This document shows, piece by piece, positions 2,897-41,696 of a DNA stretch of 64,000 bases. The notes under the pieces were generated by a model. That model saw nothing but the letters and a program-made list of their open reading frames with translations. It was not told the DNA's origin and made no database searches. The position numbers and the translations under genes are program-made. Positions within the stretch are counted from its first letter, which is position 1, and each line of letters opens with the position of its first letter. Source of the stretch: Hericium rajendrae. Lineage: Eukaryota > Basidiomycota > Agaricomycetes > Russulales > Hericiaceae. Location: assembly GCA_033439255.1 (NCBI GenBank), contig CM065880.1:3534001-3598000 (forward strand), given 5' to 3'.

Positions 2897-3921
2897 CTAC
2901 TGCGCCGCCCGCACCGCCGGCGCGCCAACCTCAGGCAGCTGCGCGCCGAGATTATCCGGCACCGCAAGCGTCGGGTCCACGTCCCGCGCCATCCGCCCGC
3001 CAAACAGCACGCCGCCCTCGCGCGCACGGAACGCGGCGATGCGCTGCTCGACCTCCGGGCGGAAGTGGCGCATCAGGCCCTGGATCGGCCACGCCGCCGC
3101 GTCGCCGAGCGCGCAGATCGTGCGGCCCTCGACTTGTTTCCTGCGGAGGGGTCAGCGGGTGAGGGGGGAGGGAAGGAGGGAGGGGGAGGACGCACGTGAG
3201 CTCGAGGAGCATGTCGATCTCGCGCTGGTGGCCGCGGCCTTCGACGAGGCGGTCCATCATGTTCATCATCCAGGTCGTGCCCTCGCGGCAAGGTGTGCAT
3301 TGCCCGCATGACTCGTGTTTGTAGAACTGTCGAGGCGCACGTCAGTAAGTGGACGTGGAGGAGAATCAGAGAGTACGGACGTGCGAGAAGCGCGCGATGG
3401 CGGCGACAATGTCGGTCGACTTGTCCATGACGATGACGGCGCCAGTACCAAGGCCGGACTGGGCGTCCTTCAGCGAATCGTAGTCCATCCTGTGAATGGT
3501 CAACAAGATGTTTCATCAAGTGTAAGTCCCCAGAAAGACTCACAAAACCTCCTCGCACTTGCGGATAGGCAGCACAGGTACCGAGGATCCACCCGGAATG
3601 ATTCCCAGCAGGTTCTCCCATCCACCGCGCACACCTCCACAATGCTTCTCAACGAGGTCCTTCAGCGGAATACTCATCTCCTCCTCGACCACGCACGGGT
3701 TGTTGACATGCCCGCTGATGCAGAACAGCTTCGTGCCCTGATTCCGCGCCCGCCCAAAGCCCGCAAACCAGCTCGAGCCGCGCCTGCAGATAGTAGGCGC
3801 AACCGCGACGGTCTCGACGTTCGCGACGGTCGTCGGGCAGCCAAACAGGCCGACGTCGGCCGGGAACGGCGGCTTCAAGCGCGGCTTGCCCTGCTTGCCC
3901 TCGAGACTCTCGATGAGCGCC

Positions 3922-3961
<40 letters not shown>

Positions 3962-4751
3962 GGTACACGTCGAACGCGTAGCCGGACCCGCACGCGTTCT
4001 TGCCGAGGTAACCCGCCTTGTACGCCTCGTCGATCGCCTGCTGCAGGTGCGATGCCTCCTGCACGAACTCGCCGCGGATGTAGATGTATGCGGCGGTCGC
4101 GTTCATGGCGCGGCCGGCGACGAGGCAGCCCTCGACGAGCTTGTGCGGGTCACCGCGCAGGATTTCGCGGTCCTTACATGTGCCAGGCTCGCCTTCATCG
4201 GCGTTGACGACAAGGTAGCGGGGTCTAAGTGCGGTTAAAAGTGAGTCTGACAATCACAAAAGCGAATTGCGCATGATGAGACGCACCTTGGGTCTTTCTC
4301 CCAACCTGGCTTGTTCATGAAACTCCACTTCAGCCCGCTGGGGAACCCAGCGCCTCCACGTCCCCTCAAACCTGAGTCTTTGATCGTCTGAATGATCCAC
4401 GAGTCGCCCTTCAGAATGATGTCTTTTGTACGATGCCAGTCACCGCGGGACTGCAAGCACATCAGAGTTTGAGCTTATAACGTGGTGATTTTTGGAAAAC
4501 TACGCACCACAGCACCCTTAATCCCATGATCATGTCTACAGTATGCATTGGTGAAGATGCGGTCCTGGTCTTTGAGGCCGCCGTAGCGGCGAACAGGGGT
4601 GTCCTCGACCGTCGCAAAGGTCCGTCTGCTAGCAGCAGCGGGCCGTGGTATACCTGCAAACATCATCGAATGAGCCCGTGTCCCTCATGATACATGATAG
4701 AAGCTAAAGACGGGCGAAATACGCACGGGCTAGCCTGGAGGCTTTGAGCAT
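2897..4751 (-). CDS. NDUFV1: NADH:ubiquinone oxidoreductase 51-kDa flavoprotein subunit (complex I)
   Basis: This is the NADH-oxidising subunit of mitochondrial complex I, which carries FMN and the 4Fe-4S cluster N3. The start at 4751 gives MLKASRLAR followed after an intron by a basic, Arg/Ala-rich matrix-targeting region ([16 protein letters not shown]). The mature protein shows [16 protein letters not shown] (FMN/NADH glycine-rich site), [35 protein letters not shown], and [13 protein letters not shown] with a later TICALGD cysteine, the four ligands of N3. Introns with clean signals lie near 4713-4655, 4504-4448, 4290-4229, 3540-3490, 3380-3327 and 3195-3143. Stop TAG is at 2899-2897. The encoded length is about 500 residues, normal for fungal NUO-51. 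It is the only clear housekeeping gene here and is intact. A GAC-rich purine tract at about 4757-4785 lies just upstream of the start. Confidence 0.96.
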
Positions 4752-5332: not shown

Positions 5333-6197
5333 ATGGCATCAGACGAACAGATGCAAGCTACGGGCTCGACGCATCCCGAGACTTTCTCCCGCAGTAACGG
5401 CTTCATTCTTCCACTCCGACTGGAGAGCATTATAAAATCGGAAGGCGAGGACTTTATTCGAGTGTGGCTGGACTGCGTAAAGTGTGAGTCGCTTTACACA
5501 TTACCAGCCCGTCCCAGGAACTGATGATGTAACAGGTCACTACGACCTATGCCAATCTGACGAACCACCAACCACGCTCGGCCTGGCGAACCTCACTTTC
5601 GACCCTTCTGCTGGCCATGCCGGTGCGTTCATCGACTGGGATGCTGCTATAGTCACGCACTGCGAAGGCAATCGAACAGGCGCATCTCCGTTCCTGGCCC
5701 TGGACATGTTATGGAAATCCCCAGCTCCACAGCTGTATCGCCATGACCTCGAATCGTTTATTTGGATATTGCCGTGGGTATTCCTTCAATATGAGGGAGG
5801 TCGCAGGAAAAACCGTGTTCTTCGGTCCTGGGAGGGTCCAGATTCTGATAGCCTTCATGGTGTAAAATGCTCTTTCTTTGACAGGTTATCAGAGTTCAGT
5901 CCAATGCCTCGGTACAAAAACGAATGGCGGATTGCTAAGGTGCTATTATTCTGGTTGACCTCGGAGGCAAACCGTCGACAGACCGAAGCGGAGAGCCTTG
6001 AACGCGTGATGAAGGATAAGCAAGGCAAGCTCGCAGATTTTATCAAGCAAATCAGATCCATGCCGAAGGTTGCTGAGCCTGAGGAGAAAGAGCCTGGACA
6101 GGTTTACCGAGAGTTTTGGAAAACAATAATTGTTGCGGTAGAGGAGGATCGGGTGGCCCTGGGCTATGCTTACGATTGTATGCCACTCGATGGTTAA
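5333..6197 (+). CDS. FunK1-family C-lobe-only kinase-like protein, copy 1
   Basis: Two exons, 5333-5483 and 5536-6197, joined by a gtgagt...aacag intron. The start (CCA-ATG-GCATCAGACGAA) is chosen because the same context recurs in copies 2-4. The protein (about 270 aa) has the FunK1 landmarks LPLRLESI, WLDCVKCHY, FIDWDAA (the DFG-like region), PFLALDML (the activation-segment end) and LYRHDLESFIWILPWVFLQ. It ends QVYREFWKTIIVAVE. It lacks the N-lobe and the canonical HRD catalytic loop; the corresponding stretch reads SDEPPTTLGLANLTFDPSA. Full-length FunK1 proteins (PF17667) are normally several hundred residues longer. It is probably catalytically dead, and any role as a pseudokinase is inference. 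Confidence 0.8.
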
Positions 6198-6532: not shown

Positions 6533-7408
6533 ATGGCATCGGACGAAGAGACTCCGGCTACAGTCCGGTGTTCCGAATCTCTCTCTTATAGTAACCACAT
6601 CCTTCCACTGCGACTAGAGAGCATCCTCAAATTGGAAGGCAAGGACTTCGTTCGCGCCTGGCTGGATTGCGTGAAATGTGAGTGGCTTCGCGTTGCACTA
6701 GTCAGCGGTTGCTCACACTAGAGTCTAGGCCACTACGTCCTATCGCAATCTGGCGAACGGGTCACCACGCTCAGCCTTACGAGCCTCGCCTTCGACCCTG
6801 CGGCTGGTGGATCCAACATACTCATCGATTGGGATGTTTCTACACCCACGCATGAGGAGGGTGTTCGCACCGGCGCGCCTGCCTTCCTGGCCATGGATAT
6901 GCTGGGCAAGACCACAATCCCGCGGCTGTATCGTCATGATCTTGAGGCATTCATTTGGATTCTGCCTTGGGTATTCCTCCAGTTCCAGGACGGGCGCAGG
7001 ATCAGCCGTGTCCTTAGCTCTTGGGACAGTGCTGACTATAACGCTGTCCGCATTCAGAAAAGCGACATCCTTTATGGAGTCAGGTCAGAGCTGCACCTGG
7101 AGAAGACCTCGCCATTCCTTCAAGAGTGGCCGCTTGCCAAGAGGCTAGTCTATTGGTTGTTCTGCGAGAACGTTCGTCGGATGGAAGCAGCGATGTTCCA
7201 ACTCCTGGCGCACGACGAGAAAACCTCCACTCGGGACGCCCATCCGGTGCCGACTTACATCAAGAGGGTACCAGCGCCAAAAGCGCCTGAGCCCGAAAAA
7301 AAGGCTAAGCAGGTCTACATAGATTTTTGGAAGGAAGTAGTTGAGGTAATACGTGGCTATCCGCAGGAACTGGATTATGTATACGATTGCATACCACATA
7401 GTGTCTAG
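6533..7408 (+). CDS. FunK1-family C-lobe-only kinase-like protein, copy 2
   Basis: Exons 6533-6677 and 6729-7408, with intron gtgagt...tctag. Landmarks are LPLRLESILKLEGKDFVRAW, DCVKCHYVLSQSGERVTT, ILIDWDVS, PAFLAMDMLGK, LYRHDLEAFIWILPWVFLQ and the tail QVYIDFWKEVVEVIRGYPQELDYVYDCIPHSV (shown here as pieces of one tail). Like copy 1 it has no N-lobe and no HRD motif. The frame is fully open and both splice sites are clean, so it may still be expressed. It lies 335 bp after copy 1 in the same orientation, with the shared leader block in the gap. Confidence 0.78.
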
Positions 7409-7742: not shown

Positions 7743-8581
7743 ATGGCGCAGGATGAAGGAATTCAGGCTACGAGCCCGTATTCCAACACTTCTCCTCACG
7801 ATATCGAGCTCATCCTCCCGCTGCGGCTAGAGAGCGCCACGAAGCTGGAAGGCAAGGATTTCGTTAACGCTTGGTTTGATTGCGTGAAATGCAAGTAGCT
7901 TCCATACCGTTCTATTGTGACGTGGGTACTTACTCTGTCGCAGGCCACTATATTTTATGGCAGTCGGGCGAACGACCCACTACGCCGTGCCTTACGAGTC
8001 TCGCCTTCGACCCTTCAGCCGACCGATCCAACATACTCGTTGACTGGGATTCCGCCACGGCCACGCACGGAGAGAGCGATCGGCGCGCGGGCTCACCTGC
8101 CTTCTTGGCCCTGGATATGTTGCGCAAAGCCACAGTTCCGCGGCTCTATCGCCATGAGCTGGAGGCCCTGGTTTGGATCCTGCCCTGGGTAGTCCTCCAG
8201 TACAAGAACGGGAAAAGAAGCTTCAATGTCCTTCGATATTGGGAGAGCGCAAACTACGGACACGTTCGCATTACTAAAGCCGGATTTCATTATCAGTTCT
8301 ATGATGTTTGGGAAGGCTCGTCGTTCCGTAATGAATGGTTGATCGCTACAAGACTGGTAGCTTGGTTGCAAGCGGAGAATGCTGATCGAGCCATAGAACA
8401 AAGGAAGCCCCAGCACATGCCAGCCTCCACCGCCCTGAAGAAATGCATGCTAGTTGTTGCTGAGCCTGAGAAAGAGCCGAAGCAGGTTTACATAGAGTTC
8501 TGGAGAGCAGTAGTCAACGCGATACGATGGTACCCAAAGGAGCTGCATTATGTCCGTGCTTACATACCAAAGAGTGTCTAG
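7743..8581 (+). CDS. FunK1-family C-lobe-only kinase-like protein, copy 3 (GC-AG intron)
   Basis: Exon 1 is 7743-7890 and exon 2 is 7944-8581. At the position where the sister copies have AAAT|gtgagt, this copy reads AAAT|gcaagt, so the 53-nt intron would be of the rare GC-AG class. Removing it restores CVKCHYILWQSGERPTT. Other landmarks are ILVDWDSATATHG, PAFLALDMLRK, LYRHELEALVWILPW and QVYIEFWRAVVNAIRWYPKE. The HRD motif is absent as in the sisters. If the GC donor is not used, translation stops at the TAG two codons into the intron and only about 50 residues are made. Confidence 0.7.
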
Positions 8582-12889: not shown

Positions 12890-13928
12890 ATGTCCCCGAT
12901 CATGAAGCACGCTCAAGCGGATACTACTGACAACGTCCGAGACCATATTCGAGAGGCTCCTCATTCCGCAGATTTTTCGAGCCCTAGTGATAACATCGGG
13001 AACCTGAGATTTGCCGTTTTCCCTACCGTTCATGCGCAGAAGCTTTCCGTGCGGGTTTTACAAGCCACCATCTTCCGCCGCTTGGAACCTATTACGAACT
13101 TGCAATCTGGAGAAGAGTTCATGAAGGTTTGGTTCCGATGTGTGAAAAGTAAGTAAACATTTTTCGTATGACTTCCGCATCCATCGCCGATGCTGATGCT
13201 GGACAAAATTGGTATTGCCACAATTAGACCATTATGCGCGTTGGGAGCGCGGAATGGAGCACCCCGATCCCAGTATCGTTAAGCTCATGACGAGCGGTTG
13301 CGATAAGAACAGGGGCATTTTGAATGACTGGGACCTAGCCATCATCCATGTCCCTAACAATGAGAACCTACCCCATAGCGAGCGAACTGGGATGCCGCCT
13401 TTCATGGCAATTGATCTTCTTTCAAAGGCTTATTACGACGGCCACATGAAGCACCTATATCGTCATGATCTCGAAGCCTTCATTTGGATTCTCCCTTGGG
13501 TATTCCTCCAATATGAGAACGGGAGGAGGAAAAACCGTGTTCTTCGGGGTTGGGAGAATGCAGACTACAGGGCCGTTCGTGAAAAAAAGTCCGCTTTCCT
13601 TATTGCCTTGTCGGAGGTCAATATCATGGAGCAATTCAGAAACGAATGGGCCATAGCTCACGGACTATTAAGTTGGCTTTTGACGGAACAGGGTCGCCGA
13701 GGCGAAGCAGAAGGTCCTCAGTCCGAGAGCCCTACCAATCTTAATGCGCTGGCAGAGGAGGTGCCTTCCTTCATCGAGCGATCCGCGCCAAGTGTTCAAG
13801 CTGCGCCCAAGGAGAAAGAGCCCATGCAGATCTGCAAAGAATTCTGGACTGTAATAGTCAACGTGATAGATAAGGTTCACAATCCAGCACTGAAGTATGT
13901 TTACCGTTGCATACCAGATAGTATCTAG
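12890..13928 (+). CDS. FunK1-family kinase-like protein, copy 5
   Basis: Exon 1 is 12890-13148 and exon 2 is 13228-13928, joined by gtaagt...attag. The protein (about 320 aa) has the conserved FunK1 run RRLEPITNLQSGEEFMKVW and CVKNHYARWERG, then MEHPDPSIVKLM where a normal FunK1 reads HRDxSxxNLM. It continues GILNDWDLAII, RTGMPPFMAIDLLSK and LYRHDLEAFIWILPWVFLQ. The catalytic Arg of HRD is Pro and the loop Asn is Lys, while the Asp is kept. The N-lobe is missing. The frame is open. It belongs to a second subgroup (with copy 6) that differs from copies 1-4 in the N-terminal exon. The hAT element lies about 390 bp upstream. Confidence 0.78.
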
Positions 13929-16773: not shown

Positions 16774-17433
16774 TCAAGCCCTCACGTACCACATTGGAGT
16801 CACGTCCTTCTTCATGAACGACCTGCACACCTGAACCCACTTCTCCGGAATCTCCTCCACCGTGCGCGACCCATATTCATTATCCGTCATCTTCAGCACG
16901 CTCACCTCCTCCCAGTAATCGCCATCCGGGCTTATTCTTCCCGTATACCCGGTCCTCACGCTGATGAGCACGCGGTTGTTTCTGCAGTAGTCGGAGATCT
17001 CGGAGAGGAATTCACTGCCGTCGATCTCCTCGTCCGTGCTGTTGCCGTCCTTGGTTTCCTTGGCCCAGGCATCGAGATACGCATCGTCGACTTCGATACC
17101 GTAGATCCATTGACGAACAGCCGGGCCGCGCGGGTCTCGCGTGGCAGGGGTGTCGCTCGTTGGAGGAGGAGGTGGGCGCATCACCTTTTTACCTTTCGAT
17201 TTCTTCTTTCTCTTCTGCGTCTGCGTCTGCGTCTGCGGCTCAGCGGTGACTTGTGGTGCCATCGCAGGCTCAAGCTGCCAGGCCGGCGCCTGGATTATGG
17301 TGATCATGTGTTCAGATTCACTTTCGAGTATGTCCTGCGAGTTGATCTCTGGAATCGTAGACTCTGGCTGGGACCTATGGAATTCTTAGTGAGTCTCGCT
17401 TCTAGCTCTGAGGGAGAGACGAAAATGGCATAC
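16774..17433 (-). CDS. Small WY-motif family protein, unit-1 copy
   Basis: The main exon (about 17388-16774) encodes SQPESTIPEINSQDILESE, an Ala/Gln/Lys-rich linker, a proline run, then the conserved part WIYGIEVDDAYLDAWAKE, FLSEISDYCRNN, VSVLKMTDNEYGSRTVEEIP and the C-terminal VTPMWYVRA. Its 5' end sits at a ccatag acceptor. A short upstream exon ending in AT before gtatgc (about 17432) would supply ATG through the splice junction, as in the 35.6-kb paralogue. No known domain is recognised. Paralogues in this window are at 21474, 35630 and 57372. The family signature is an N-terminal W/F-x-x-G-[IL] with Leu/Asp-rich helix and a C-terminal PxWY. Function unknown. Confidence 0.6.
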
Positions 17434-18230: not shown

Positions 18231-19275
18231 ATGTCCTCGATCATAAATCACGCTCGAACGGACACTACTGACAACATCGAGGGCCACATTCCTGAGGCTG
18301 CTCATTCCGCAAATTTTTCGAACCCTAGTGAAACCGTCGGGAACCTAAGATTTGTCGTTTTTCCAAGCTTTTACGCACAGAAACTCTCCGTGCGGGTTTT
18401 ACGAGCCACCGTCTTCCGTTGATTGGAACCTATTACGAACTTGCAATCTGGAGAGGAATTCATGAAAGTTTGGTTCCAATGTGTGCAAAGTAAGCAAACG
18501 TCTTTCGTACGACTTCCGCGTTCATTGTCGATGCTGATTCTGGACAAAATTGGCATTGCCACAATTAGACCATTATGCGCGTTGGGAGCGCGGAATGGGG
18601 CACACCGATCCCAGTATTGTTAACCTCATGACGAACCATTTCGATAAGAGCAAGAACATCTTTAACGACTGGGACCTAGCGATCATCCGTGTCCCCGACA
18701 AGGAGAGCCTACCCCATAGCGAACGAACTGGGACTCCGCCTTTGATGGCACTTGATCTCCTCACAAAGGCTTATCATGACGGCGAGACACCACGACTGTA
18801 TCGTCACGATCTTGAGGCATTTATCTGGATCTTGCCTTGGGTATTTCTCCAATACCGGAACGGGAAAAGGGCAATCAGTATCCTTCGGTCTTGGGAGAGT
18901 GCAGACTACCGAGAGGTTCACTCTGCCAAAACCTCCTTCCTTGCGCGGTTTGTCTCGGAGTACGGTGTCGGGGAAGACTCACCGTTCTATAACGAATGGT
19001 TGATCACTAGGGCACTATTGACCTGGTTGAAGACGGAGGACAGTCATCGAACCGAGGAACAGATAAAGCCCCAGCACATGTCGGCCCCTACCACCCTCAA
19101 GCAAATATCTTACCCAGACTTTATCGACCCTGAGGAACCCACGCTACCTGTTGCTAAGCCTGAGAAAGAGCCTAGGCAGGTTTACAGAGAGTTTTGGAAC
19201 ATAATAGTCAAGGTCATACGGAGGTACCCACAGGAGCTGGATTATGTCCGCGCTTGCATACCAAAGAGTATTTAA
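18231..19275 (+). pseudogene. FunK1-family kinase-like protein, copy 6 (stop in exon 1)
   Basis: Exon 1 is 18231-18489 and exon 2 is 18569-19275 (gtaagc...attag). It is the unit-2 counterpart of copy 5. In exon 1 the frame reads RATVFR-stop-LEPITNLQSGEEF: a TGA at 18420-18422 stands where copy 5 has an Arg codon. Exon 2 is intact: HYARWERGMGHTDPSIVNLM (HRD is HTD; the loop Asn is kept), IFNDWDLAII, RTGTPPLMALDLLTK, LYRHDLEAFIWILPWVFLQ. Unless translation restarts downstream or the stop is a sequence error, no full product is made. Confidence 0.7.
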
Positions 19276-21473: not shown

Positions 21474-22085
21474 TCATAAACGACCTGCACACCTCCGCGG
21501 AATCTCCTCCACCGTGCGCGACCCAAACTCGTTATCCGTCATCTTCAGCACGCTCACCTCCTCCCAGTAATCGCCATCCGGGCTTATTCTTCCCGTGTAC
21601 CCGGTCCTCACGCTGATGGGCACACGGTTGTTCCTGCAGTAGTCGGAGATCTCGGAGAGGAATTCACTGCCGTCGATCTCCTCGTCCGTGCTGCTACCGT
21701 CGTTGTTTTCCTTGGCCCAGGCATCGAGATACGCTTCGTCAACTTCGATACCGTAGATCCATTGACGAACAGCGGGGCCGCGCGGGTCTCGCGTGGCAGG
21801 GGTGTCGCTCGTCGGAGGAGGAGGCGGGCGCATCACCTTTTTTCCTTTCGATCTCTTCTTTCTCTTCTGCGACTGCGACTGCGTCTGCGGCTCAGCGGTG
21901 GCCTGTGGTTCCATCGCAGGCTCAAGCTGCCAGGCGGGCGCCTGGATTATGGTGATTATGTGTTTAGGTTCGCTTTCGAGTATGTCCTGCGAGTCGATCT
22001 CTGGAATCGTCGACTCTGGCTGGGACCTACGGAGTTCCTGGTGAGTCTCGCTTCTAGCTCTGAGGGAGAGACGAAAATGGCATAC
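21474..22085 (-). pseudogene. Small WY-motif family protein, unit-2 copy, C-terminus lost
   Basis: Nearly identical to the 16.8-kb gene through SVLKMTDNEFGSRTVEEIP. A deletion of about 10 bp near 21497 (unit 1 reads CCTGAACCCACTTCTCCGG, unit 2 CCTCCGCGG) then shifts the frame, giving RRCAGRL-stop. This removes the conserved PMWYVRA end that all other members keep. It is probably non-functional, or a truncated variant. Confidence 0.55.
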
Positions 22086-22825
22086 ATGCTGGCGTGAAGG
22101 AGAGAATACAGAAGACCAAGATGCAGTCCTACCTAGACGCGTACATCACAGCGCTGCCGCGTGCATCGCGCGTGCATCAGTCGCATCAGCCTGATATCGA
22201 TTCCTCGTTTTGACTCGCCTGTGGACGCGGGCAGCGTCTTTCGCCGTGTCCAAATGAAGTCGAACTTCCGTTTCAGGATGCGGTTGAGACTTGCCTGGTC
22301 TACCCGGCCTGACTTTGCAAGTGTGAGTGGTTCCGAGAGATTGTGCATAGAAATACAGTTGTATATATCCATGTGTATCGACACAGATCCAACAAGACAT
22401 GTCATAACTAGAAGGTCCATGGCGGCCCGGTATAACTATAGTGAGATATAGAGATGCGATGCAAGAGAAAAGAAACGGAGAAAGATCAAAGGAAAAGAAA
22501 AGAAAAATGTCTACTGATACGCTCTCATCAGCTCTACAACACTGGCCGTCTGCTGGCGGAAGGCAGGCTAATAGGCCCAGGACTCGACGTGGCGACCGAA
22601 ATGGTTAAGTACAAGCCGAGCAGCAGCGAAGTGTTCCACCATCCGCGCCCGTGATGGCACACAGTGCGAAAGGCACATGCAGCCGCGCAGAGGCACTGAG
22701 CCCGTCGCAGATTCCGGTCGTCGATGGCTCCAGTCGCTGGCTATTCTTCACGAAGACATCTCCACCGCGGAATAGCCCCCTCGGGACACCCAAGCGCAGT
22801 GTCCTCCACGGGAGCCGTCTCCAAT
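22086..22825. other. Intergenic, end of duplication
   Basis: It contains the distal edge of unit 2 (to about 22315) and a purine-rich AAAGAAACGG/GAAAAGAAAAG tract at 22465-22510. No gene is recognised. Confidence 0.4.
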
Positions 22826-26951: not shown

Positions 26952-26961
26952 CTATCACAGT

Positions 26962-27055
26962 TAGGCTCGGTCAGCCCCTCCTGTAAGCGCCGGAGGGGCT
27001 TGTATCAAAGTCCTTATCTTGTAGGGGGTCAGGTAGGTGGCCTTATCTCGCCGTA
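26962..27055 (+). repeat. Transposon left terminal inverted repeat
   Basis: Starts TAGGCTCGGTC. A perfect 9-bp hairpin AGCCCCTCC/GGAGGGGCT lies at 26973-27000. Then come TTGTATCAAAGTC, GGGGGTCAGGTAGG and two CCTTATCT subterminal motifs. Confidence 0.8.
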
Positions 27056-27204
27056 GATAACGCTCGATTAGGGAAATCTTAGTGAGATTGCATTACATAA
27101 ACCCCGGATCTGAGCTCGGAGATGAGATAGCGGCGAACTCTAGGGAAGCCAATCGAGTACGAGCGACGTGCGCAGCACTGTCGCTCTCTTGCTCGAACGT
27201 CGAC

Positions 27205-29959
27205 ATGACTACCCAAGAGCAACATGTACGGAAGGTCAGGAACATACTGAATGCCATAGCAGCAGAAGACTGGTCTGTCAATGAGTTTCTGATCAACTTC
27301 TACACCTCTAACAACCCGGACATCCGAGCTCAAGCCAACCGAAACCTCACATATGTCGAGGGTACCAGATATGGACCAGACGCTATCCTCAATGCCTGGA
27401 CACACAACGTACCGAACCGTCCCTCCCGTGACCGCTTGAACCGGAGCCTCACCGAGCAAGTGGCACATGTCGTAGTCGAGGAGTCGACCAAGGCTTATCA
27501 TCACCCTGACCTGCATCTTCCGGCGACATCTGCAACTACGCAACAATTCAGCACTCAATTCCCATTCGAAAAGATTCTTTCGATCTACAGCACGCTTCTT
27601 CCGTGCCTCTGGATCATCCTGCATGCTATGCTTACTGCACAGAATGATTACGAGCGCAAGCGCGGACATCCAAAGGAAGACAAGGAGTTTCGGGCATCGG
27701 GAGTAAGTCATATGATTTATGCTACTGATTCATCCTCTAATAATTGGGTATGAATGTGCAGATTATCCTGGTCATTATTAGCATGTTACTATTCGGACGC
27801 AATCGCGCAACAAATGTGTTTCAACTTATCTTCGGAGTTTTCCTATCGAGTTCTGGTGCCGGACGGCGGGTCCTTGATGTTTGTAACCATATGGGTCTCT
27901 CAGTGAGCTACATGTAAGATAATTTTCTGCTTCTTGTCTACACTCTTATTCATTCACATACAGGACAGTCCAGCGCTGTCTGCGGTCACTTACACAGAGT
28001 GCACGGGCAAATGTCATTGATTTCATACAGAACTCGAATCGCCTTTTTGCTGTGGTGTACGATAATATCAACTTCACGCTGCGTAAAGCTGGTCAGCGCC
28101 TCGACAACACTACAGAACAATTGAATGCCACCACAGCTGCTGTCTTCACTCTTCCTTCCCGATTCACCCGTACGATGCATGACAAATTTCTATCACGGGA
28201 CTCTCGAAAACATGGCCTGCGTAAGGAGATGAAGAAGGAAGACTTGCGCATCACAGAGGAGAAGCAGAGTCATATGGTTGCTGCATTTCAGTGTCAGATT
28301 GAGCTGATACTCCTGCAACATGCTCCAGGATTAAGACAGAACTCAAAATGTCGAAAGCGGCTGATGAAGAAGTCTAGAAATGCAGCTCCCAAGCTACGTT
28401 CCCTTGGATATGAAAAGACAGAGTTCTATCCTCTGCCTGCCTTGGATGAAGAAGAGGCATCAGTTTCGGGAACAATTCGTGTCGTAACCAAGATCTTTAC
28501 AGCAGCTCTCAACATGGCAATTGGAGTCATTGAAAGTCAGCTTCGCCTTATGGTTGGAGACTGGCTTACCATTCACAATCTTCGCTTGATGAGGCAGGAG
28601 CGTTCTCAGGAATTTAATCTCTTCGAGCGCATGGACTGGATACAAGAAGCATCAATGCCATTTCATTTTCAGCTCAATGCAATGTATGCCCTCTTTAGGA
28701 CACATCTAGGACATGCAGGCGATAATGATAGTAGCTCACTGGGCCACCATCGTACTATTCTGCGAAGAACTGGGCTTGATCCCAAGAAACCAGAGTACAA
28801 TCGAGCTGTTGAATTGGTTTCTCATTCTCTTATTGCACGAATTCTTGATTGTACACGGTGCGTGAGCTTCTTCTCTCTCTATATATCATACATCAAATTC
28901 TGACTTGATATCCAGCATTGTGCTAGGAAAGGAGCATGTTGCAGACCTCAAGTTCTGGAAGCCTTCCTGGAATGATTTTAGGCAGCTTTCAAGTACCATA
29001 GCTCTGCGCTATGCTTCCACAGCAGCTGATCATGATGCACTTGAGCATGGTGATGAGGTCTTGGCCCACAGCATCTTTCTTATTCGAGATTCTCTCTTAT
29101 TCTTTGAGTTCAACTCTGCAATCAAGGAGGCTGATGTTGGACGAATGTGGATGGTCTATGATCACTGGCTCTTCATGCTACGTGGAGCTGGTTGTCACAA
29201 TTATGGAAATGAGATCTTGGAGATGAAGGCACAGTTTGAGTATGAGTATTCTCCAGAATTGGCAGATATTGTGGAGAACACGTGGATCGTCAACCGATGG
29301 GGTCAATCAGGAAAGTCAATTGCCACTGATCGTTACCTGGAACATAATAATGGATTTATGAAGGTATGTTTCTATATCTTCTGACTTTTCATGGTCTCAC
29401 AATTTGATACCAGACAATGTTTGATGCACAAGGAAGTGGGTCATCTATGGATTACATTATACACAAGTCATCAGCCTGTGTTGAAGTCTTACGATCACTC
29501 GCACATGCCATCACATTATTCTTTGGAATCGCAGACCATCACCGTGGACACAAAGAAGTCAATATCTCTGGAGATCTGGCTGCATTGTGCCTAGACATGG
29601 AAACACAACAGCTACATACAATGCAATCACGGCGAGTACCCCCGCCTGCTTCAGGTGCAGAGAAAGGACGGCCCCGCAAGCAGAAGGCCAAAACTGGTGT
29701 ACGTGACGTGCTGGAGGATGGAAGGGATTTACTTCTACACAAAGGCCTGTTTGAGAAGTGGAAAAAGCGGACAGGCGAAGGGAATGCAGGCGAAGGGAAT
29801 GAGGACGAAGCTGAAGTGGAAGAAGACGAGATTATGACAGGTACTGCATTCGATGATCCAACTGGTGCATTCACTGTGGACCACTCGCTGGACCCAGATC
29901 TTGACGACGAATGTCCCTTTGGAAACGTAGATATAGTCATCAGTGTGGGCGAAGAATGA
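27205..29959 (+). CDS. DUF6589-domain protein, probable transposase
   Basis: Five exons: 27205-27702, 27762-27913, 27964-28858, about 28914-29364 and about 29414-29959, all with good GT-AG signals. The protein is about 845 aa with no break. The ATG at 27205 (MTTQEQHVRKVRN) is the first in frame. Conserved features of DUF6589 proteins are visible: LLFGRNRATNVFQ, VVYDNINF (about residue 249), VGDWLTI (about residue 414), RTHLGHAG, YGNEILEMKAQF and ENTWIVNRWG with KSIATDRYLEHNNG. The Asp of YDNIN and of GDWLT are good candidates for acidic residues of an RNase H-like transposase core. That function is inferred from its place inside the inverted-repeat element. The tail is Glu/Asp-rich with a basic GRPRKQKAK patch that could be a nuclear localisation signal. 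It is more AT-rich than the neighbouring cargo gene. Confidence 0.82.
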
Positions 29960-31047
29960 CAAATGACAAATGATTGTAAGATGTGTACCTTCGAGTTCAG
30001 TACGTAGCGCATAGCGATATGACCATATTAGCGGGGCACGGTTCCATCGACACCCACTGATTGCACCCAATGCAAATCGCTCGTACGGGTGCCAATAGAT
30101 AAAGCAGCCATACGGAGGGCGCGAGCATCACATGCGCTGCCCGTTGATGATATTGACGTGCACGTCGTGGAGCTCAGAGCAATTGGATGGTATCGCATGG
30201 GCTCGGGCAGATGGCATCGTGCGTGCTCGGGCGGATTGTGTCAGCCCGAAGACGGCAAGCTGGTCTGCATTTGCAGCACTGTGGCAGGAGATCCTCGTAG
30301 GAGGTGAGGGCCATCCCGCGGTTGGATCCCGCTTCCCGCGACGGACTGCGGCGAAATGAGACCGAGTACGCATTTCAGTACGCATCTCAGCGAGTTGTGA
30401 GTCCAGCAGGTCCATGTTCGCGGTGTCCAGCATGATGTATGTCCGTGCCGTCCCTCTGCGAGACAGCGACGTCTGCCTGCGCGAGCGCGAGGTCGTCGTT
30501 CCTCCCGTCGCCGGAAAGAGCATGGCTGTGCACGTGCAGCTGCCCTGCAGGGTGTGCGCGCGCGAGAGCTTGTCTTGCGGCGTGCAGCACCTGACGGCAC
30601 GAATGGGCGCGAGGGCGCAGACAGCAGACTAAACATCGTGACAGGCTTGCTCACGAGCAAGCACAGGCTGCCTAAGTCACGCTTCACGCGTGCCTCGCCG
30701 CATTTGAGCACGCTATACCGCGGTCAGCAAGGCAGTCAGTAAGTATACATGCATGAGGCGAGGGCGGACACACCTGACGTACCGCGCGGCCTTGCCCAGG
30801 GCATTTGTCGCACTGGTCTTGTGGGAGATCTGCGCCTTGTCCGCGTGGCCCTGCCCTGCATGGGTTGAAAACATTCCGAAACGAAAACGGAAAGTACAGT
30901 ACTCTAAGTGGAAGGTAAGAACTAGATAGGCATGAAATGGGAGCAGCAAAAACCAAGAAAAGTCCGTTCGGCTTCCATAGATCCCTCCAAAGCACGTAAA
31001 AGAATGCGAGACACAACCAAGCCGCCATCCAATAAGGGAGCGTGAAC
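29960..31047. other. Transposon interior, no supported gene
   Basis: It lies between the transposase stop and the cargo gene stop. Base composition becomes GC-rich from about 30120. Frames here look like by-products of composition; part may be flank of the captured gene. Confidence 0.4.
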
Positions 31048-32120
31048 TCACGCCTCACGCGCCCAGTCCTCCCACCACCACGGTCCCTCGCGCGCCGCAA
31101 GCTGCGCCATAAACCGCATCCTCCCCTCCTGCCCCTCCTCCTCATCGGGCACCACGAGCTGCCGAAACCCGACTGCGCGCGCATCGAGGAACCACAGCTC
31201 CGCGAACGGCGTGGGCAGGCGCAGGTGCTCATCGAGGAACGCGTCCGCCCACGCCGTGAGCTCGACGAAGTTGCGCGTGTACGCGCTGGGCCCGGGCGAC
31301 AGTGGCGGGGAGGGCGACGGTGAGCGCGAGGAGCGGGACGCGGAGGAGAGCGAGGAGAGCGAGGGGGACGGGGAGGGCGAGAAGGGGAGGGGCGCGTGCA
31401 GGTCGAGGACGAAGAGCGCGGCGAGCGCGAGCGTGTGCAGGTGCGGGATCTGGCGGAACGCGGCGCCCCATGCGTCCTGCACCGTGACACGTCAGCGTCA
31501 GGCTCACAAGATGAGAGGGGGAGGGAGGAGCACGCACGAGGTCGCCGCCGGGCAGCGCGCAGGCGGCGTGCATGCCGGTCTGGTCGAGCGCGAGCTCGTG
31601 CAGCGTGGGCACGAGGCGCGCGAGCATGAGCACGTACGCGGGGCCGAAGTCGGGGAGCCACGCGCCGCCATAGTTGACGACGAGGCGGAGGTGCATGAGG
31701 CGCGAGAAGGCGAAGCTGCGCACGAGGTGCTCGAGTGCGTGCGGGACGAGCACCACCTCGAGCGAGAACGCGCGCAGGTTCGCGAGCGCGCGAGTCGCCT
31801 GTGTCGGTGTCAGTGGGGAGAGGGAGAGGGAGGGGGAGGAAAGGACGCACGAAGCCGTGCGCGAGGCACTCGCTGTAGGCCGCGGCGTTCGCGCCAAGGT
31901 GCGTGGGCAGTGTGCAGACGACGAGCGTGTGTAGGCACACGGCGGCAGAGGTCCGACCACTCCATTCAGACACGGCGCCTTTGAGCGCCTGTAAGCGTAC
32001 GTTGAGGTTCGTGCGGAGGAGCCACTCGAGCGTCGTTCGTTCGTCTTCGGGCAGCCGAGTGTTCCCATGAGTGAGGTGCCGGACCCGATGAGCACAATAC
32101 TGGCGGGTTCGGGCAGGCAA
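31048..32120 (-). CDS. Leucine-repeat (F-box/LRR-like) protein, probable captured host gene
   Basis: Three exons read on the minus strand: HLTHGNTRLPEDERTTLEWL through SECLAHGF, intron gtgcgt...gacacag (about 31853-31802), ALANLRAFSLEVVLVPHALE and LMHLRLVVNYGGAWLPDFG through CALPGGDL, intron gtgcgt...ggtgcag (about 31539-31478), then DAWGAAFRQIPHLHTLALAA and a Ser/Pro linker, ending EGPWWWEDWAREA-stop at 31048. Spaced leucines (LRAFSLEV, LHELALDQ, LHTLALAA) resemble the LRR half of basidiomycete F-box proteins. The F-box itself is not visible and the 5' end is uncertain, so it may be a fragment. The extreme GC-richness contrasts with the DUF6589 gene, supporting acquisition. Confidence 0.55.
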
Positions 32121-32155
32121 TCAAGAGGGGGTGGGTGAGGTCGAAGGCCTCATCT

Positions 32156-35013
32156 TCAACCTTCCATTAGTGATCCAAAAGCTTCATTAAGCTCCGTCAC
32201 AGTCTGTTGGTCGCTGATTGCATACTGGAATCCTTCATCGCCATGAATGGGACCCAAGTTCGAAGGCCCCGCGCTTGTCGAGCTTGATGGCCCAACTGTT
32301 CTCGAACTTGATAGGCCCTCCGTCGCGAAATCTGTTGTCCCAGTGACACCAAAATCCAAATTTCCGCTTTCCCAGGCGGCAAATGACCAAGCACGATGTT
32401 GGCCGTAGGAGAAGAATGGCTTGAGGTCAGGCGGTGGCAATAGAGGGTCCAAGAAGATGTTCTCAGGTTCGTGTTCGAACTGAGTGCGATAAGTGGATGG
32501 ATATATAGGACGTGGGCGAGGGGGAGGCTGGAAATGAGGGTATGAGTGCTCGGCTTCGTGACCTAGAGGGGTGAGAACCAGCGGCGCCATTGGTTCGCTG
32601 TTGAGAAATCAGTCCCCGTTCCACCAAAATGTCACTGTACACTCACACTAAGGATAGCTCATCATCAGGTGCGGGATTCCATGCCATCCCTGATGCGTGA
32701 CTGCTAGGTGATGGTGGAGATGCATTGCGCGTCGTTCTCCCCCGCTTCCGAGCGCGCTTTGCGGCACGTTCAGCTACCTTCTCAGCGCGTGTTTCAGCAC
32801 GCTTAGCGTGGATATGAAGTCGGAAACGATCCAGCGTGTCTGCGAGTGAAACTGACGTAGCATCGGAATCTGTAAGGAGGTCTGAAATACGATAAACAAA
32901 GTCCACGGTGATGGTATCTGGCACGCCGGTGATCCAGTTCGCCTTTTCGACAAGACGGTCGAGAGCTGCGGATGATAGGATCCAGCTCTTGGAGAGCCCA
33001 GGATTCCTCACTCGTATTTCTTGCCATCGTCCGTCGCGCCAGTGTTCAAGGCGCCGTCGAAGATCGTCACGTTCGAATGGAGAGCAAGATGTGGAAGATA
33101 GCTTCGGCAGTGAAGAACTTGATGAGGAATGATAGGCAGGATGAGACATGGCTGCCAGTAGTATCGAGTAGTGCCTGATGCGGGCAAGCTCCTCGTCGTT
33201 GACAACACCTATAGGCAAAGACGGGGATAGCCAACACGACTGCGAGCTGCAACAGGCGCCGAGAGGTGGTTTGGCCGGCATTGCGTTGACCTGCCAGGTC
33301 ACGGTGTGACTCTCACCTTCCTCATCTTCGCCATCACTGCTGTCGCTGTCCATGCCAAGGCATCCCATGGACAAGGCCAATTCATCCTCTACTTCTCCGG
33401 CGCCAGTCTTCTTGAGCCCACGGATGTGTGGTGTTGGGCGAAAATACTCACGGGCGTAGTCCCGCAGGCATTCGCCCGACACCGAACGACTGATATATTC
33501 GAGCGCTGCAGGGTCTACCTTCTCCCCTCGCTCTTTCAGCGCAGCCTTCATGGGTGGGTTCACTTGATCATCACGAACGCCATCACCCGCTCGATCCCTC
33601 TCATCTTGACCATTAGTTGGCTCGCCTCCATAGTCTAGATACTCGAAGACCCAGTCCTCGACCAACCAGACCATGGCTGCTGATGTATCAGCCTTGCGCC
33701 CTGCTCGACCACCCTTCTGCATAGCCGAACAGAGGTCTTGGATCCCGTATACCATGGAAAGTTTGATGTCCGGTATGTCGCATCCCATCCCAGCAGCATC
33801 TGTAGCAAATAGCCACCTGATGATTCCAAGTTCATACAGAGCCATGGCTTCGCTCCGGAAGCTCTCTGAGTTAATCCCTGTGAACGAGTATAAGCACTCT
33901 CGCAGGTGAGACGGCAATAATGCACGGAGCATCTCGCACGCTTGACGCGCCTCGCGTCGCATCTTGAAATAGAAAATGGTCTTAGGTAGGTCATCTGGCG
34001 ACGTTGTTGCTGACAGGTTTGCGGGCAGGAATGCGAGTAACGATGCAAAAGATTTTGAGGAAGAGGCCATAGGCCGGACGTATTGCGCCAAGTTTGGTCG
34101 ATCGGCTCCCAGATCAATGCCCCAGAACGGGCGTGCACTACCAAGCCCTAAGGATGCATAGACAGTGTCGAAAATGTGAGTGGGTACGGTTGCTGAGAAT
34201 GCTGCCATCGGGATTTCAGAGCCTGACACGATGCGAAGTGTCTGCAGTTCACCATAGTCTTTTCGAAATTCCCGTTGCCATTGCTCGATGATATGTGCTT
34301 CATCGACAATGGTGACTAATTGCCGCCGTCTGAATGCCTCCGCGCGGAAGAAAGCCTTGAAGCGGTTATTTCGCAGCAAGCACTCAGGCGATGCGTAACA
34401 TAGTCGTATTTCCCCCCTTTCTAACCGTTTGAAGTCTTGCTCCTCTTTGTGGTCTTCATTGATGGCTAATGCAGTTATTATAGGATGGTCAACATCCATA
34501 GCATCACCTGCAATAGTATGTCGATGCGTGCCGTTCAACCGGTTAACCTAGGCATGATGGTTTCAGCCGATGGTGAGTTTGCCTGCGCAGTCATGAAAAC
34601 GGGCTCACTTGATCCATTTGCAGGGCTTTTAGTGGACAGATCACAATGACGAGACTGTCACTGCATGTTAGCTCAGCAGCTATGGCGAGCATCGCAAAGA
34701 CAAGTGATTTTCCGGCGCCGGTAGGTGCAATCACAAAGACATCATTGTTTTCGAGAATTTTGACGGTTGTCTGTACTTGCCAGAGATGCGGCTGGTATCC
34801 AAATATTGTCCGGGTAGCTTTGGTAAGCTGCGCGACTGGGACCATGCCCTTCAATCGTGGCCATGGCTTTCTTCCGCCCGACTGAGACAAGCTCTGCTCG
34901 AAGATATCTAGGGTATTGTTTGCTAGTGGTGCTCGTGGTGGTGTGGAAAAGCGAAATGAGTGTAGATGTGAAGGAGGGGATGGTGGTGGAGTAGTATAGA
35001 TATCTATGTCCAT
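32156..35013 (-). CDS. RecQ-like superfamily 2 DNA helicase
   Basis: The start at 35013 gives MDIDIYTTPPPSPPSH. Exon 1 (35013-34609) has GYQPHLWQVQTTVKILEN and Walker A APTGAGKS, and ends KALQMDQ. An intron (gtgagc...cctag) leads to exon 2: VDEAH (motif II), MAAFSATVP (motif III), FYFKMRREARQACEML, LFATDAAGMGCDIPDI (motif V) and QKGGRAGR (motif VI). It runs to DDELSLV at about 32644. A third exon after a 49-nt intron (gtgagt...caacag) ends at 32156 (FGSLMEG). The predicted size is about 900 aa. The motif set is that of RecQ-family 3'-5' helicases; the C-terminal half has no recognised RQC or HRDC domain. Its location inside the inverted repeats, convergent with the transposase, suggests a role in transposition. 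Confidence 0.88.
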
Positions 35014-35189
35014 GTCTTTACCAGAAAGACGGAGAGTGTAGCACTTTTCTGAACAGACAGGCTCGACTTCAAAGCAATTGAAATGCCAGATCTCATCTTA
35101 TCGGTGTGGTTTTTAATCTTATCGACGGAACCTGTCTCATCTCCGAGCGGAATTACATAATCTGTAATGAGTCTACAAAAGTTTTTGTA

Positions 35190-35284
35190 GTGCGACTACA
35201 AGATAAGCCGGCGCCTACCCGACCCCCCGGGCGCTAACGACTTTGATACAAGACCCTCACGCGTGGGGTCTTGGTATGAGACTA
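35190..35284 (-). repeat. Transposon right terminal inverted repeat
   Basis: Read from the end on the minus strand it starts TAGTCTC. A near-perfect hairpin follows (plus strand AGACCCTCAC 35251-35260 / GTGGGGTCT 35263-35271), then TTGTATCAAAGTC, GGGGGGTCGGGTAGG and GGCTTATCTTGTAG. Confidence 0.8.
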
Positions 35285-35294
35285 CTATCACAGT

Positions 35295-35629: not shown

Positions 35630-36318
35630 TCATTCATCTATCGCATACCACAACGGCGTGATCTTCTCAACGCCCATGAACTTCCGATATCGCTCAATCC
35701 GCTCCGCCGAGATATCCTCCACAGCCTGCGACCCCAGCTCATTATCCGTCAGCCACAGCACCGATATCACCACTGGGACATCGTCGCTCGGCGGCGGTAG
35801 ATACCCGCCCGCGAACGCGTTGACGCACCAGGTTGTCGGTAGACCATGGCGGGATAGGAAAACCATTTTCAGGCTTGAGAAAAACTCCGAGTGTGCCACA
35901 TCCTGGTCGAGCGGGTCGTCGAGCGGGCCAAAGTCATTCTCCGTGCACCATTTGTCGAGAAAGGCGTTGTCAAAGCCGATGCCGTAGACCCATTTTCGCC
36001 GGCCAGGGTGGTCCCTGCGTCGGGTGGGCGGAGTGGTAGTCATAGGCGCGGGCGCGGGCTCTCGCGCTCTTTGTCTCTGATGTCTTGCGTCCTGCGTCAC
36101 TATTTGTGGCGCTGCGGATTCTTCTTCGTCCCCCGAATGCTCTGGAGTTATTGTCCCAGTTTCGGAGTGTCTCTGTAGAATCGCAGGCACCGCACCAACT
36201 TGGACTTGTTCGGCTGTGGATTCAGGCTGGGACCTGGGCAACTGTGAGCAGCAATCTCGTGGTGTATCCCAGGAAGCAGGACACGTACATGTTGAGGGAC
36301 GTGTCGGAGATCATGTAC
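35630..36318 (-). CDS. Small WY-motif family protein
   Basis: The main exon (about 36237-35630) is preceded by a 26-nt exon (MISDTSLN plus AT) joined through a gtacgt...gcccag intron, so ATG is completed at the junction before SQPESTAEQVQ. It has the conserved set seen at 16.8 kb: WVYGIGFDNAFLDKWCTEND, FFSSLKMVFLSRHG, VVISVLWLTDNELGSQAVED and the C-terminal ITPLWYAIDE. About 210 residues. No known domain. It is intact and more divergent than the 16.8/21.5-kb pair. The common exon structure shows that the three genes are paralogues. Confidence 0.65.
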
Positions 36319-37607: not shown

Positions 37608-39307
37608 ATGACGTCTTCGCTAGATTCTCTGGACCTGCGGGTCCCTGCGTCTGTTACCACCCAGGATATATACGACGCGGTCATCAGCTTCAGCGACGAC
37701 GCTGAATTGCTTGATATTCTCGCTACTCTTCCCCCACAAGGCGACCAGGTGAGCGCGTATAAATTTCTGTACTGGATCGCGGTGCCCACCGTTGTCACCA
37801 CATTCGCCTAGGACGCCTTCAACATGGCCATGGGCCATGTCCACAGCGACTTCAACGCCAATGACACGACTACCTTCCAAATGGTGAGTGTCGCTTTCGC
37901 TTCTAATATGAGATGCACATTCCACCGACCTTGTTGGACCACGCAGGATCCATGGTCCACCGCCGCGACGACCCGCACTACCATCTGCGATGCAGATGCT
38001 GGCAGCGCCTATGGCATCCCCGCCGGATTTAACGATAGCCAGGATGCATGGAGCAGTCGCCTGGGTGAAATGAATGTGAGTATTTCGTACACGAGGAGAG
38101 AAATGAGTTACATACTGTTATCGCCTAGGCCATCTCCAGTCAGTCCTCGAATTTTGAGCAATATAACGCCCTGCCTGAGGTCAGCATCGCCAGCATGGGT
38201 ACGATGCACGCCCAAATCCCGACATCCGCAGCCCATCCTCACTTCCATCGTATATCCCCGAGAAGCGCTTACCAGCGACCTTGCAGCGAGCACACCTACA
38301 ATGATCAGCACATCCAGCAAGTTGCTCACACCGTCTATCAGCATACCATCGACCCACGCCTGCTTCTGAACGGCGTGAATGTGCCCTCCCAACCTACGAC
38401 GCCGCCGCTCCCAAAATGGTCTCCGCACAGCCCTGCCATGCGGTCATTGGGTGATACCAGTTCCTCTGCGATGTCACTCTCATCGACGACGCCCAAGTTG
38501 CCCATTTACCCGGAGAACATCGGCATGAAAATCGCAGGGTCCCCGTATATGGGCCGCGAGAAGCCGGTAGTGACGACAGCCGTCCAGATGCCATTTTCCG
38601 CGCTGAGCGGGCATGGATCGTCGCGCGCTGAGGCTGAACAGTCGGCGTTAGCATCAGGACGGACGCGCGGAAAGCGCAAGGCCGACGAGGCCAACATCGG
38701 AGATCATGATCATCACCTAGACCATGATAGTGCTGCACAGAGCAGCATACAGACCCACCCTCGGTCGGCCAAGCGGCAGAGGATGTCAGCTGCCCAAACC
38801 AGGGCCCAAATGACCGTCAGTCCCAACGTCGGGACCTCAACCCAGACGGCCATTCAGGCCCTGAAAAAACCACAGATAGACTCCAAAGCTTCCAGCCTCG
38901 GAGACCAAGTCCCCAAGACCTTTAACTCGGAGGATCTACCTGGGTCCATCACAGGGCCCAGCACAGTTACGCCCAAGCAGATATCCCCGGGCAAGAAGCG
39001 GAGGACGAGACGGAAAGCGAAGGGAGAGAAGGAGGAGATGTGTCCTTGGGACGGATGCGGGAAACACGCCAGCCGACTAGCTGACTTGAGGCGCCATATT
39101 AAAAACATCCACCTCCAGCAGAAGGCACGTTGCAAGATTTGCGGGAAGGGCGCGAAGGAGCACCGCAAAGACTCCGTCCAGAGGCACTTGAGAACAACCC
39201 ACCACTTCTCGGAGACGGCGCAGATGGAAGCACAAATCGTGTACTTGGAGGTGAAGGTGGAGCCACGGGTGTTAGAGTGGCTGAAGGCTGTGGGGATCGA
39301 GCTATAG
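37608..39307 (+). CDS. C2H2 zinc-finger protein, putative transcription factor
   Basis: Four exons: 37608-37748, about 37812-37884, 37948-38074 and 38130-39307, each with a GTGAGx donor and CTAG/GCAG acceptor. The protein is about 500 aa. The N-terminal region is acidic and low-complexity. A long Ser/Thr/Pro-rich middle contains RTRGKRKADE, and a basic stretch GKKRRTRRKAKGEK (likely nuclear localisation) precedes two C-terminal fingers, CPWDGCGKHASRLADLRRHI..H and CKICGKGAKEHRKDSVQRHL..H. It ends EWLKAVGIEL. The second finger has an unusually long spacing between Cys and His pairs. Target unknown. Two damaged partial copies of its last exon occur at 41150-41696 and about 56070-56330. Confidence 0.8.
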
Positions 39308-41149
39308 TGGAACGCGAGGGACGAGAGCAGAGGGCTCGTCGAGAATGAGGAGGCAATCAAGCGAGATGTGTGCTTTGGGGTAACAATGCAGGTCGCTCTC
39401 CCGTCGCGAGCGAGTCGCGAGCGCGTTACAACACGTTCTCTTGAGCTTTCAACGGTGAGCATACAAAGACCAGCTACGGCACAGTGCAGGATATCGGTAC
39501 TGGATGGACGTTACCTTTTTATTTCTACCTTTCTCTTTTATCGTATCTGGCGCAAGATGTTCCGTTCCCACATGATCCGCCCTGTATTTTCGCATGTCAT
39601 CTTCTCGTGTCTCTTATCAACGGCCATCGCCATTGCTTCTGGCGTTGTCCATCATCATCGCCGTATTCCTTATCTACACAGTGCGACATGTCGTACATCC
39701 AAACGTGAAATCCTGAGATTCGATGACAGGAAATCATGGGGTCGCATTCGACTACTTAGTACCAGACGACAAGCTTCTCCTCGAAAACATAACTCACCTG
39801 CGATCCCTCATGCAACATAGATTCGCAAAGCAGCAGGGATGATCAATAATGATGTCGGGGCTGAGCGCTGAGACTCGGCTGAGACAGCGACAAAGAGGAG
39901 AAACCGAACCATCAAGTGAACCAGAACGGCGTGTGAATCGCTAAATAAGCGCCCAATACCTCTGTTTAGCGGCTCCCGAACTTCGCAAGCTTCACACTTC
40001 AAGGGCTCCATTAACACTCTGCAGGACTTTCCGAATCTTATATTCCACCACGCTAGATGAGTAGGGACCGGCATGTGTGCCAGTGAAGGTGCGTACAATG
40101 CACGTCGTTTATTTACTCGCCTGGTCCTTAGACTCTTCGATCTCTGTGAAGACGTCGGTCCTTATGTGTCCGTTTGGACGCATGGGAATGCACTATGAGC
40201 ACTGTGACGGCGTAGTGCATGTAAGGCTCGTGTTTTGTATCATTATGTCCCTACCACGCGCATGCGCGCATTCGACGTTCTCATCCAAGTTAGTGACAAT
40301 TTAAAACGGCACGACCTAGCATGCATGATGATGCAGATGCATTCCCCTAACGTCATGGCCTTCCAGATTTCCGGCGCGACTACCCGCGAGAGTGATCATA
40401 CTGTTGCGGGCATGCGCCAGACTCTTGCTAACGGCCAGAGAAGCACGACGATCATACCGCGCTGGCACTGCGAGCTGCAGCTAATTGACCGAGCGCGGGA
40501 CCATGCTTAAAAAACAGTGATTGTGGCTTTGTCGAAACGAGCAAGCTCTCCTTCAAGATCTATGATGAGTACCTCAGGCGGATTGTACGGCCGCCTGTCC
40601 CGCAGCCCCGTTGGAGATTATCTGAGATGTCTGTGAAGCAACAATCGTCGTGGGCCGTTCTCGATGGACCGATAATGGACCTCATTGACCAGGATGTGCT
40701 GCACGATATCGTCGTGAATCGCCCCGAGTTACTGTGACAGACGCTCGTGAGCGATTCCAGGAAAGCTCGTCAGGATAGTAGCATACGGTAGGATCGCACC
40801 CGACAGCGGCGCATCGCACTCGACAGCGGATCGCACTCGACAGCAGATCGCACTCGACTTTGTCGCTGCTTCGTTGATCTCTCCTTGAACAGATGCAATA
40901 GAACCGACCTCGGCCACGACCCTCGAGAGCTAGCTCCTCTAGACCAACAAATAAGTGCGAATGATGGTATCTAACCACAGAGAGGATGGCCCCATAGTGA
41001 CACCGGCTGCTGCCAGACAGTAGCGGTACGCAGCACGCCGAAACCAAGTCGACGACATTGCGTCAAGCACGGCAAGCGTAAGGCAGATGACATCGAGAGC
41101 GTGATCGCCAGCTCGATCATCGTAGCACTGCATAGAGCATACAAAGACA
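39308..41149. other. Intergenic, small tandem repeat
   Basis: No gene is recognised. A short imperfect tandem repeat (GATCGCACTCGACAGC units, about four) lies at 40793-40860. Confidence 0.45.
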
Positions 41150-41696
41150 TCCTCAGTCGGCGAAACGGCCGAGGACATCATCAGCCCGAACCAGGGCCAG
41201 AATAACCGTCAGTCCCAATATCGGGACCTCAACCCAGACGGCCGTTCCGGCCCTGGAAAACTCACAGATAGACTCCAAAGGCTCTGGCCGTGGAGAACAA
41301 GTCCCCAAGACCTTCAACTCGGAGGATCTACCTGGGTCCATCACAGGGCCCAGCACAGTTACGTCCAAGCAGACATCCCCAGGCAAGAAGCGGGGGACGA
41401 GACGGAAAGCAAAGAGAGAGAAGGAGATGTGCCCATGGAACGGATGCGGGAAACACGCCAGCCGATTGGCTGATATGAGGCGCCATATCAAGACGATCCA
41501 CCTCCAGAAGAAGGCGCGTTGCAGGATCTGCGGGGAGGGCGCGAGGGAGCACCGCAAAGACTCCGTCAAGAGGCACTTGAGAACAACCCACCACTTCTCG
41601 GAGACGGCGCAGATGGAGGCGCAAATCGTGGAGGTGGAGGTGGAGGTGGAGCCACGGGTGCTAGAGTGGTTGAAGACTGTGGGGATCGAGTTGTAA
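41150..41696 (+). pseudogene. Partial duplicate of the C2H2 gene (last exon only)
   Basis: It matches about 38770-39307 of the parent gene. An open frame runs ARITVSPNIGTSTQTAV, EQVPKTFNSEDLPGSITGP, GKKRGTRRKAKREKE, both zinc fingers (CPWNGCGKHASRLADMRRHI and CRICGEGAREHRKDSVKRHL) and the end EWLKTVGIEL-stop. The first three exons and promoter are missing. A truncated product from the ATG before CPWNGC (41427) would still have both fingers. Confidence 0.65.

Follow-up and report, generated by a model that had tools for sequence, protein, structure and literature searches.

We analysed a 64-kb window of the Hericium rajendrae genome (contig CM065880.1), in which two large spliced genes, one for a DUF6589 protein and one for a RecQ-like helicase, are arranged convergently and lie wholly inside a segment bounded by inverted repeats and flanked by a short direct duplication (Table 1). 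Without this duplication the element extends from position 26962 to 35284 and is 8323 bp long. The exon borders of both genes are predictions from reading frames and splice signals.

Table 1. Features of the element and of its borders (window coordinates)
Feature	Coordinates	Strand	Details
Target-site duplication, left copy	26952..26961	+	CTATCACAGT; adjoins left end TAGGCTC
Left terminal inverted repeat region	26962..27150	+	imperfect, gapped; inner border approximate; core TTGTATCAAAGTC at 27000-27012
Hairpin, left end	26973..27000	+	9-bp stem, 10-nt loop; from element base 12
DUF6589 gene (presumed transposase)	27205..29959	+	845 aa; unbroken frame, GT..AG introns; 5 exons: 27205-27702, 27762-27913, 27964-28857, 28916-29363, 29414-29959
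Gene fragment without start codon	31048..32111	-	316 aa; exons 32111-31851, 31798-31538, 31476-31048
RecQ-like helicase gene	32156..35013	-	915 aa; 3 exons: 35013-34609, 34547-32647, 32597-32156
Right terminal inverted repeat region	35110..35284	-	inner border approximate; core TTGTATCAAAGTC at 35251-35239
Hairpin, right end	35249..35273	-	8-bp stem, 9-nt loop; from base 12 counted from the right end
Target-site duplication, right copy	35285..35294	+	CTATCACAGT; adjoins inverse of TAGTCTC

The flanking sequence CTATCACAGT is repeated perfectly over 10 bp and has only these two matches in the window (both strands), none of them beyond the element flanks; 0.09 matches were expected, and two were reached in 1 of 100 shuffles. 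Immediately inside the duplication lie the element ends, TAGGCTC on the left and TAGTCTC on the right, followed after 38 and 33 bases, respectively, by a 13-bp core common to both, TTGTATCAAAGTC, which occurs exactly twice in the window (once per strand) and is absent from shuffled sequence. Another sequence, CTTATCTTGTAG, is also present in two copies in the window, one per end region. The similarity of the inverted ends extends beyond these motifs: their gapped alignment (200 x 200 bp) reached a score of 104.5, compared with a maximum of 64.5 among 1000 dinucleotide shuffles (mean 38.8, sd 5.9). An earlier note on this DNA had described the 10-bp direct repeat at both edges, as well as inverted termini sharing the core at 38 and 33 bp from the ends. 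Both observations hold, and the inverted repeat is in fact longer than was described there. Since the duplication is perfect and the genes are intact, the insertion is probably recent.

It is conceivable that all three gene-like units of the segment are host genes, in which case the locus would be an ordinary host gene neighbourhood with repeats that arose by chance. This is contradicted by the anatomy of the borders, where the 10-bp repeat exactly adjoins inverted repeats with a common 13-bp core, and by the frequency (2.3e-6) with which two random 10-mers of the window are identical; the probability that we assign to it is almost negligible.

Each end also contains a hairpin starting at its twelfth base, a feature left out of the earlier description. 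Stems of at least these lengths arose in 16 of 20000 shuffles for the left end (52 nt) and in 46 of 20000 for the right end (46 nt); these chance values must not be multiplied, because the ends are homologous and hence not independent. Among 20000 random 50-mers taken from the window, stems of at least 8 bp were found in 90 and of at least 9 bp in 13, and the whole 64 kb contains 13 and 2 stems of these respective lengths (loops of 3-12 nt). When folded as single-stranded DNA, the left end gave a z value of -2.22 (4 of 200 shuffles were as stable) and the right end a z value of -3.05 (1 of 200). With the two ends anchored on TTGTATCAAAGTC, six hairpin pairs are common to both; three further inner pairs are present only in the left hairpin, and two outer ones only in the right. 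One of the common pairs is C-G in the left end but A-T in the right one, so that both of its bases differ, and is therefore compensatory, which, as a single case, is only suggestive of a hairpin structure. A palindrome in this position could equally be the binding site of a protein dimer on double-stranded DNA. Two other interpretations of the ends were rejected: that the two hairpins have unrelated arms (the anchoring on the core shows their homology), and that a second stem of 6 bp (bases 82-99 on the left, 85-99 on the right), which is too weak, is a real feature.

The DUF6589 gene is interrupted by four GT..AG introns, each 50-59 bp long. In its 845-aa product DUF6589 (PF20231) was the sole Pfam family found at E up to 1, with a match of 359.2 bits (E 3.2e-107) that joins residues 303-710 to positions 4-410 of the 410-position profile. 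NCBIfam gave no model up to 0.01, and no chain in the PDB matched by sequence up to E 10. The contribution of individual segments was assessed by masking, in which ten 41-residue blocks of residues 231-760 were replaced in turn by X. Relative to the 359.2 bits of the whole unmasked protein (not of the trimmed piece), the largest losses were caused by masking residues 590-630 (274.9 bits) and then 631-671 (286.7 bits), and the smallest by masking residues 303-343 (344.5 bits). Three acidic residues picked by eye, D250 (in YDNIN), D416 (GDWLT) and E657 (LEHNN), are candidates for a catalytic triad; the first of these motifs, YDNIN, is situated upstream of the start of the Pfam match. Single-sequence AlphaFold models of the exon 3 and exon 4 pieces, predicted apart, had pLDDT values of 40.7 and 47.1 and were all-helix and meaningless as evidence for or against an RNase H-like core (the first ~16 residues of the exon 4 piece are intron read-through).

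Searches of non-fungal collections, which carry low weight for a fungal protein, gave no match of the DUF6589 protein to plasmids and phages (tblastn, E up to 0.1), and no confirmed relative of the protein or its pieces among viral and genome contigs; the same was true of helicase residues 1-434 compared with viral contigs. DUF6589 is not named in the literature searched, in which PF20231 and IPR046496 (the latter presumably the accession for the same domain) retrieved no related paper, apart from one string match in nanophotonics that is surely unrelated.

The helicase gene has two introns (61 and 49 bp, GT..AG). Residues 1-769 of its product match the Pfam families DEAD (1.7e-20) and, just above the cut-off, Helicase_C (2.7e-5), and in the C-terminal tail, scanned separately, no domain was found. 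The best solved relatives are chains of helicase Q5 (best 9.2e-19), the Bloom protein and helicase Q1. The whole protein scored 122.7 bits (1.7e-35) against TIGR00614 (recQ_fam), below the curated cut-off of 219.8, and 107.8 bits (5.1e-31) against the RecQ equivalog model, far below the cut-off of 640.2. RQC/zinc-binding and HRDC domains are typical of RecQ helicases; neither residues 1-769 nor the tail, each scanned apart, gave a Pfam family of either kind at E up to 1. Because both model scores are below their cut-offs and because RQC and HRDC families were not found, the protein is, judged by its sequence, a RecQ-like helicase and not a standard RecQ.

The two large, unbroken, spliced and convergent genes that the earlier note had described are thus confirmed, with five exons and 845 aa in one and three exons and 915 aa in the other. 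Its picture of the interior was nevertheless incomplete, as it left out a GC-rich stretch carrying a third gene-like unit. The approximately 2.2 kb between the two stop codons have a G+C content of 63.5%, compared with 46.4% in the DUF6589 gene and 52.5% in the helicase gene. Within this stretch lies a 316-aa gene fragment with two apparent introns and a frame open to a stop, whose first exon has no ATG and is preceded by an in-frame stop just upstream. Its third-position G+C is 0.883, as against 0.463 in the DUF6589 gene and 0.507 in the helicase gene, and is higher than in each of the six other frames of the window that were measured (0.811 in the Complex1_51K gene, 3540-4253, and 0.519-0.688 in the remaining five). 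A Pfam scan of the fragment gave nothing at E up to 5, nothing else in the window resembled it convincingly (best 0.057), and a parent gene was not found. It is probably part of a host gene that was captured at the DNA level with its introns kept; origin by a nested insertion is less likely. The fragment lies about 45 bp past the stop codon of the helicase gene, in the same orientation, and is a possible source of exons for a helicase fusion.

Of the 54 listed frames, ten that lie outside the element were scanned in Pfam, as a whole or in part. Five related frames on the forward strand (5481-6197, 6722-7408, 7880-8581, 13197-13928 and 18538-19275) resemble, by eye, the C-terminal part of fungal kinases; the only one of them that was scanned, 5481-6197, matched Pkinase_fungal (2.8e-8). 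Two similar forward frames (38129-39307 and 41136-41696) appear by eye to have a zinc-finger-like C-terminal region, and the only match of the former was to zf-H2C2_2, below the cut-off (0.0043). Three further frames, on the reverse strand (16774-17385, 21474-22145 and 35630-36310), seem by eye to be related to one another; no Pfam match was found for 16774-17385 up to 0.01, and the only one for 35630-36310 (PAX) was below the cut-off. The last of these frames has its 3' end some 340 bp away from the transposon. At 60461-63202 (forward strand) there is a frame for a NACHT-type NTPase (NPHP3_N, 5.2e-23), followed by one that, by eye, looks like a WD-repeat protein. The matches to Pkinase_fungal and NPHP3_N, taken with DUF6589 and the shortness of the introns, point to a basidiomycete host.

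The best explanation of the locus is that it contains an autonomous DNA transposon belonging to the AcademH lineage, in which the DUF6589 protein would act as a DDD/E transposase aided by the RecQ-like helicase, and we regard this as very probable. The anatomy of this one element suggests that DUF6589 is the AcademH transposase, since it is encoded by the sole large domain-bearing gene besides the helicase. The earlier note had already presented the segment as a whole helicase-bearing AcademH-like transposon with DUF6589 as its transposase. The first part of this proposal is well supported by the duplication length, the inverted repeats, the presence of two intact genes and the RecQ-like nature of the helicase; the second part, for which the same anatomy argues, is the best reading of a single element.

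Two alternatives concern the identity of the transposase. In the first, the unit would be a MuDR-type (MULE) element that has acquired a helicase. The available part of PMC10045372 gives 4 to 10 bp as the length of IS256/MuDR-type target duplications, a range that includes the one found here, but no MULE transposase model was found in Pfam at E up to 1, DUF6589 being the sole family, and the likelihood of this alternative is slim. In the second, DUF6589 would be a passenger or accessory protein, and the unit would be moved by another protein or by a helper element. The catalytic role of DUF6589 is indeed deduced indirectly, as the protein has no PDB match up to E 10 and its AlphaFold models are of low confidence. 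Against this, the helicase gene is the only other large, multi-exon, domain-bearing gene of the element, and what remains is a fragment that lacks a start codon and matches nothing in Pfam. We consider a passenger role unlikely, and it would be compatible with an AcademH-like element; the probabilities attached to the alternatives are thus not always exclusive of the best explanation.

DDD/E transposases cut at the inverted repeats of an element and then perform a staggered joining to the target. Starting from the borders, duplication, open spliced frames and domain identities, all of which are observed directly, the movement of an AcademH element with a DUF6589 transposase may be envisaged as follows: (i) the DUF6589 protein would bind both inverted repeats and cut the element out, (ii) it would join the element to the target by staggered strand transfer, and (iii) repair of a 10-nt stagger would generate the 10-bp duplication that is observed. 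The RecQ-like helicase might assist by opening the duplex, either at the ends or in the target, or it might act in repair. A far-reaching extension of this scheme, in which DUF6589 proteins would be transposases family-wide, the ends would be recognised partly as hairpins that the element's own helicase would help to extrude or resolve, and host gene DNA would be captured by the element, is speculative and, taken together, rather doubtful.

Should DUF6589 prove to be the AcademH transposase, proteins now labelled in Pfam as being of unknown function could be re-labelled as transposon genes. Besides this link, the locus provides one copy that looks intact, has defined ends and lends itself to testing, and the hairpins and the captured fragment offer further leads. 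No second copy of the ends or of the genes was found within the 64-kb window, and a search of the window for an empty site with the joined flanks returned, apart from the flanks themselves, one match of 69 bp at 72% identity.

Among known systems, RecQ helicases are not confined to Academ elements. The sections of PMC9587614 available to us describe KolobokH, which has been found in fungi only, as encoding a RecQ helicase; they further describe Kolobok-1_CCri, from a red alga, whose RecQ helicase lies on the opposite strand, in a layout like that of the present element. KolobokH, or another RecQ-bearing Kolobok, would therefore resemble our element in its helicase and, in the case of KolobokH, in its fungal host. 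The helicase reported here is encoded by a separate convergent gene, but gene layout alone rules out no Kolobok, because Kolobok-1_CCri, which is outside KolobokH, has its helicase on the other strand (same source, same sections). It is the duplication that contradicts this alternative: Kolobok elements are reported there to duplicate the 4-bp sequence TTAA, whereas the duplication described here is 10 bp long and contains no TTAA. We accordingly hold a Kolobok origin to be very improbable.

The 10-bp duplication together with the helicase favours AcademH over KolobokH, and the element is most likely an AcademH, as judged from the length of its duplication, the type of its helicase and its inverted repeats, not from transposase sequence. 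In the accessible part of PMC10045372, AcademX, a member of the same superfamily, is described as having a nuclease in place of the helicase and duplications of 3 or 4 bp, and thus differs from the present element in both respects. Bivalve Academ elements, with a mean length of 5565 bp according to the part of PMC10294476 at our disposal, are shorter than the 8323-bp element described here. As for fungi, excerpts of PMC8290104 report insertions in a mushroom that are putatively non-autonomous Academ elements, and PMC12210899 and PMC9970103, as far as their available text goes, do no more than mention the AcademH paper or cite it. According to excerpts of PMC10799480, the DEAD and Helicase_C domains are treated as helicase domains of AcademH, KolobokH or Helitron elements, and AcademH is cited as occurring at low copy number in Basidiomycota, Ascomycota and Mucoromycota; the element of H. 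rajendrae, with its DEAD/Helicase_C helicase, is in keeping with this. It also shares terminal inverted repeats with AcademH, which the seen part of PMC9587614 presents as a general feature of DDD/E elements. Finally, AcademH target duplications are stated in the available part of PMC10045372 to be 9 or 10 bp long, a length related to the helicase of these elements, and the 10-bp duplication of the present element fits this rule.
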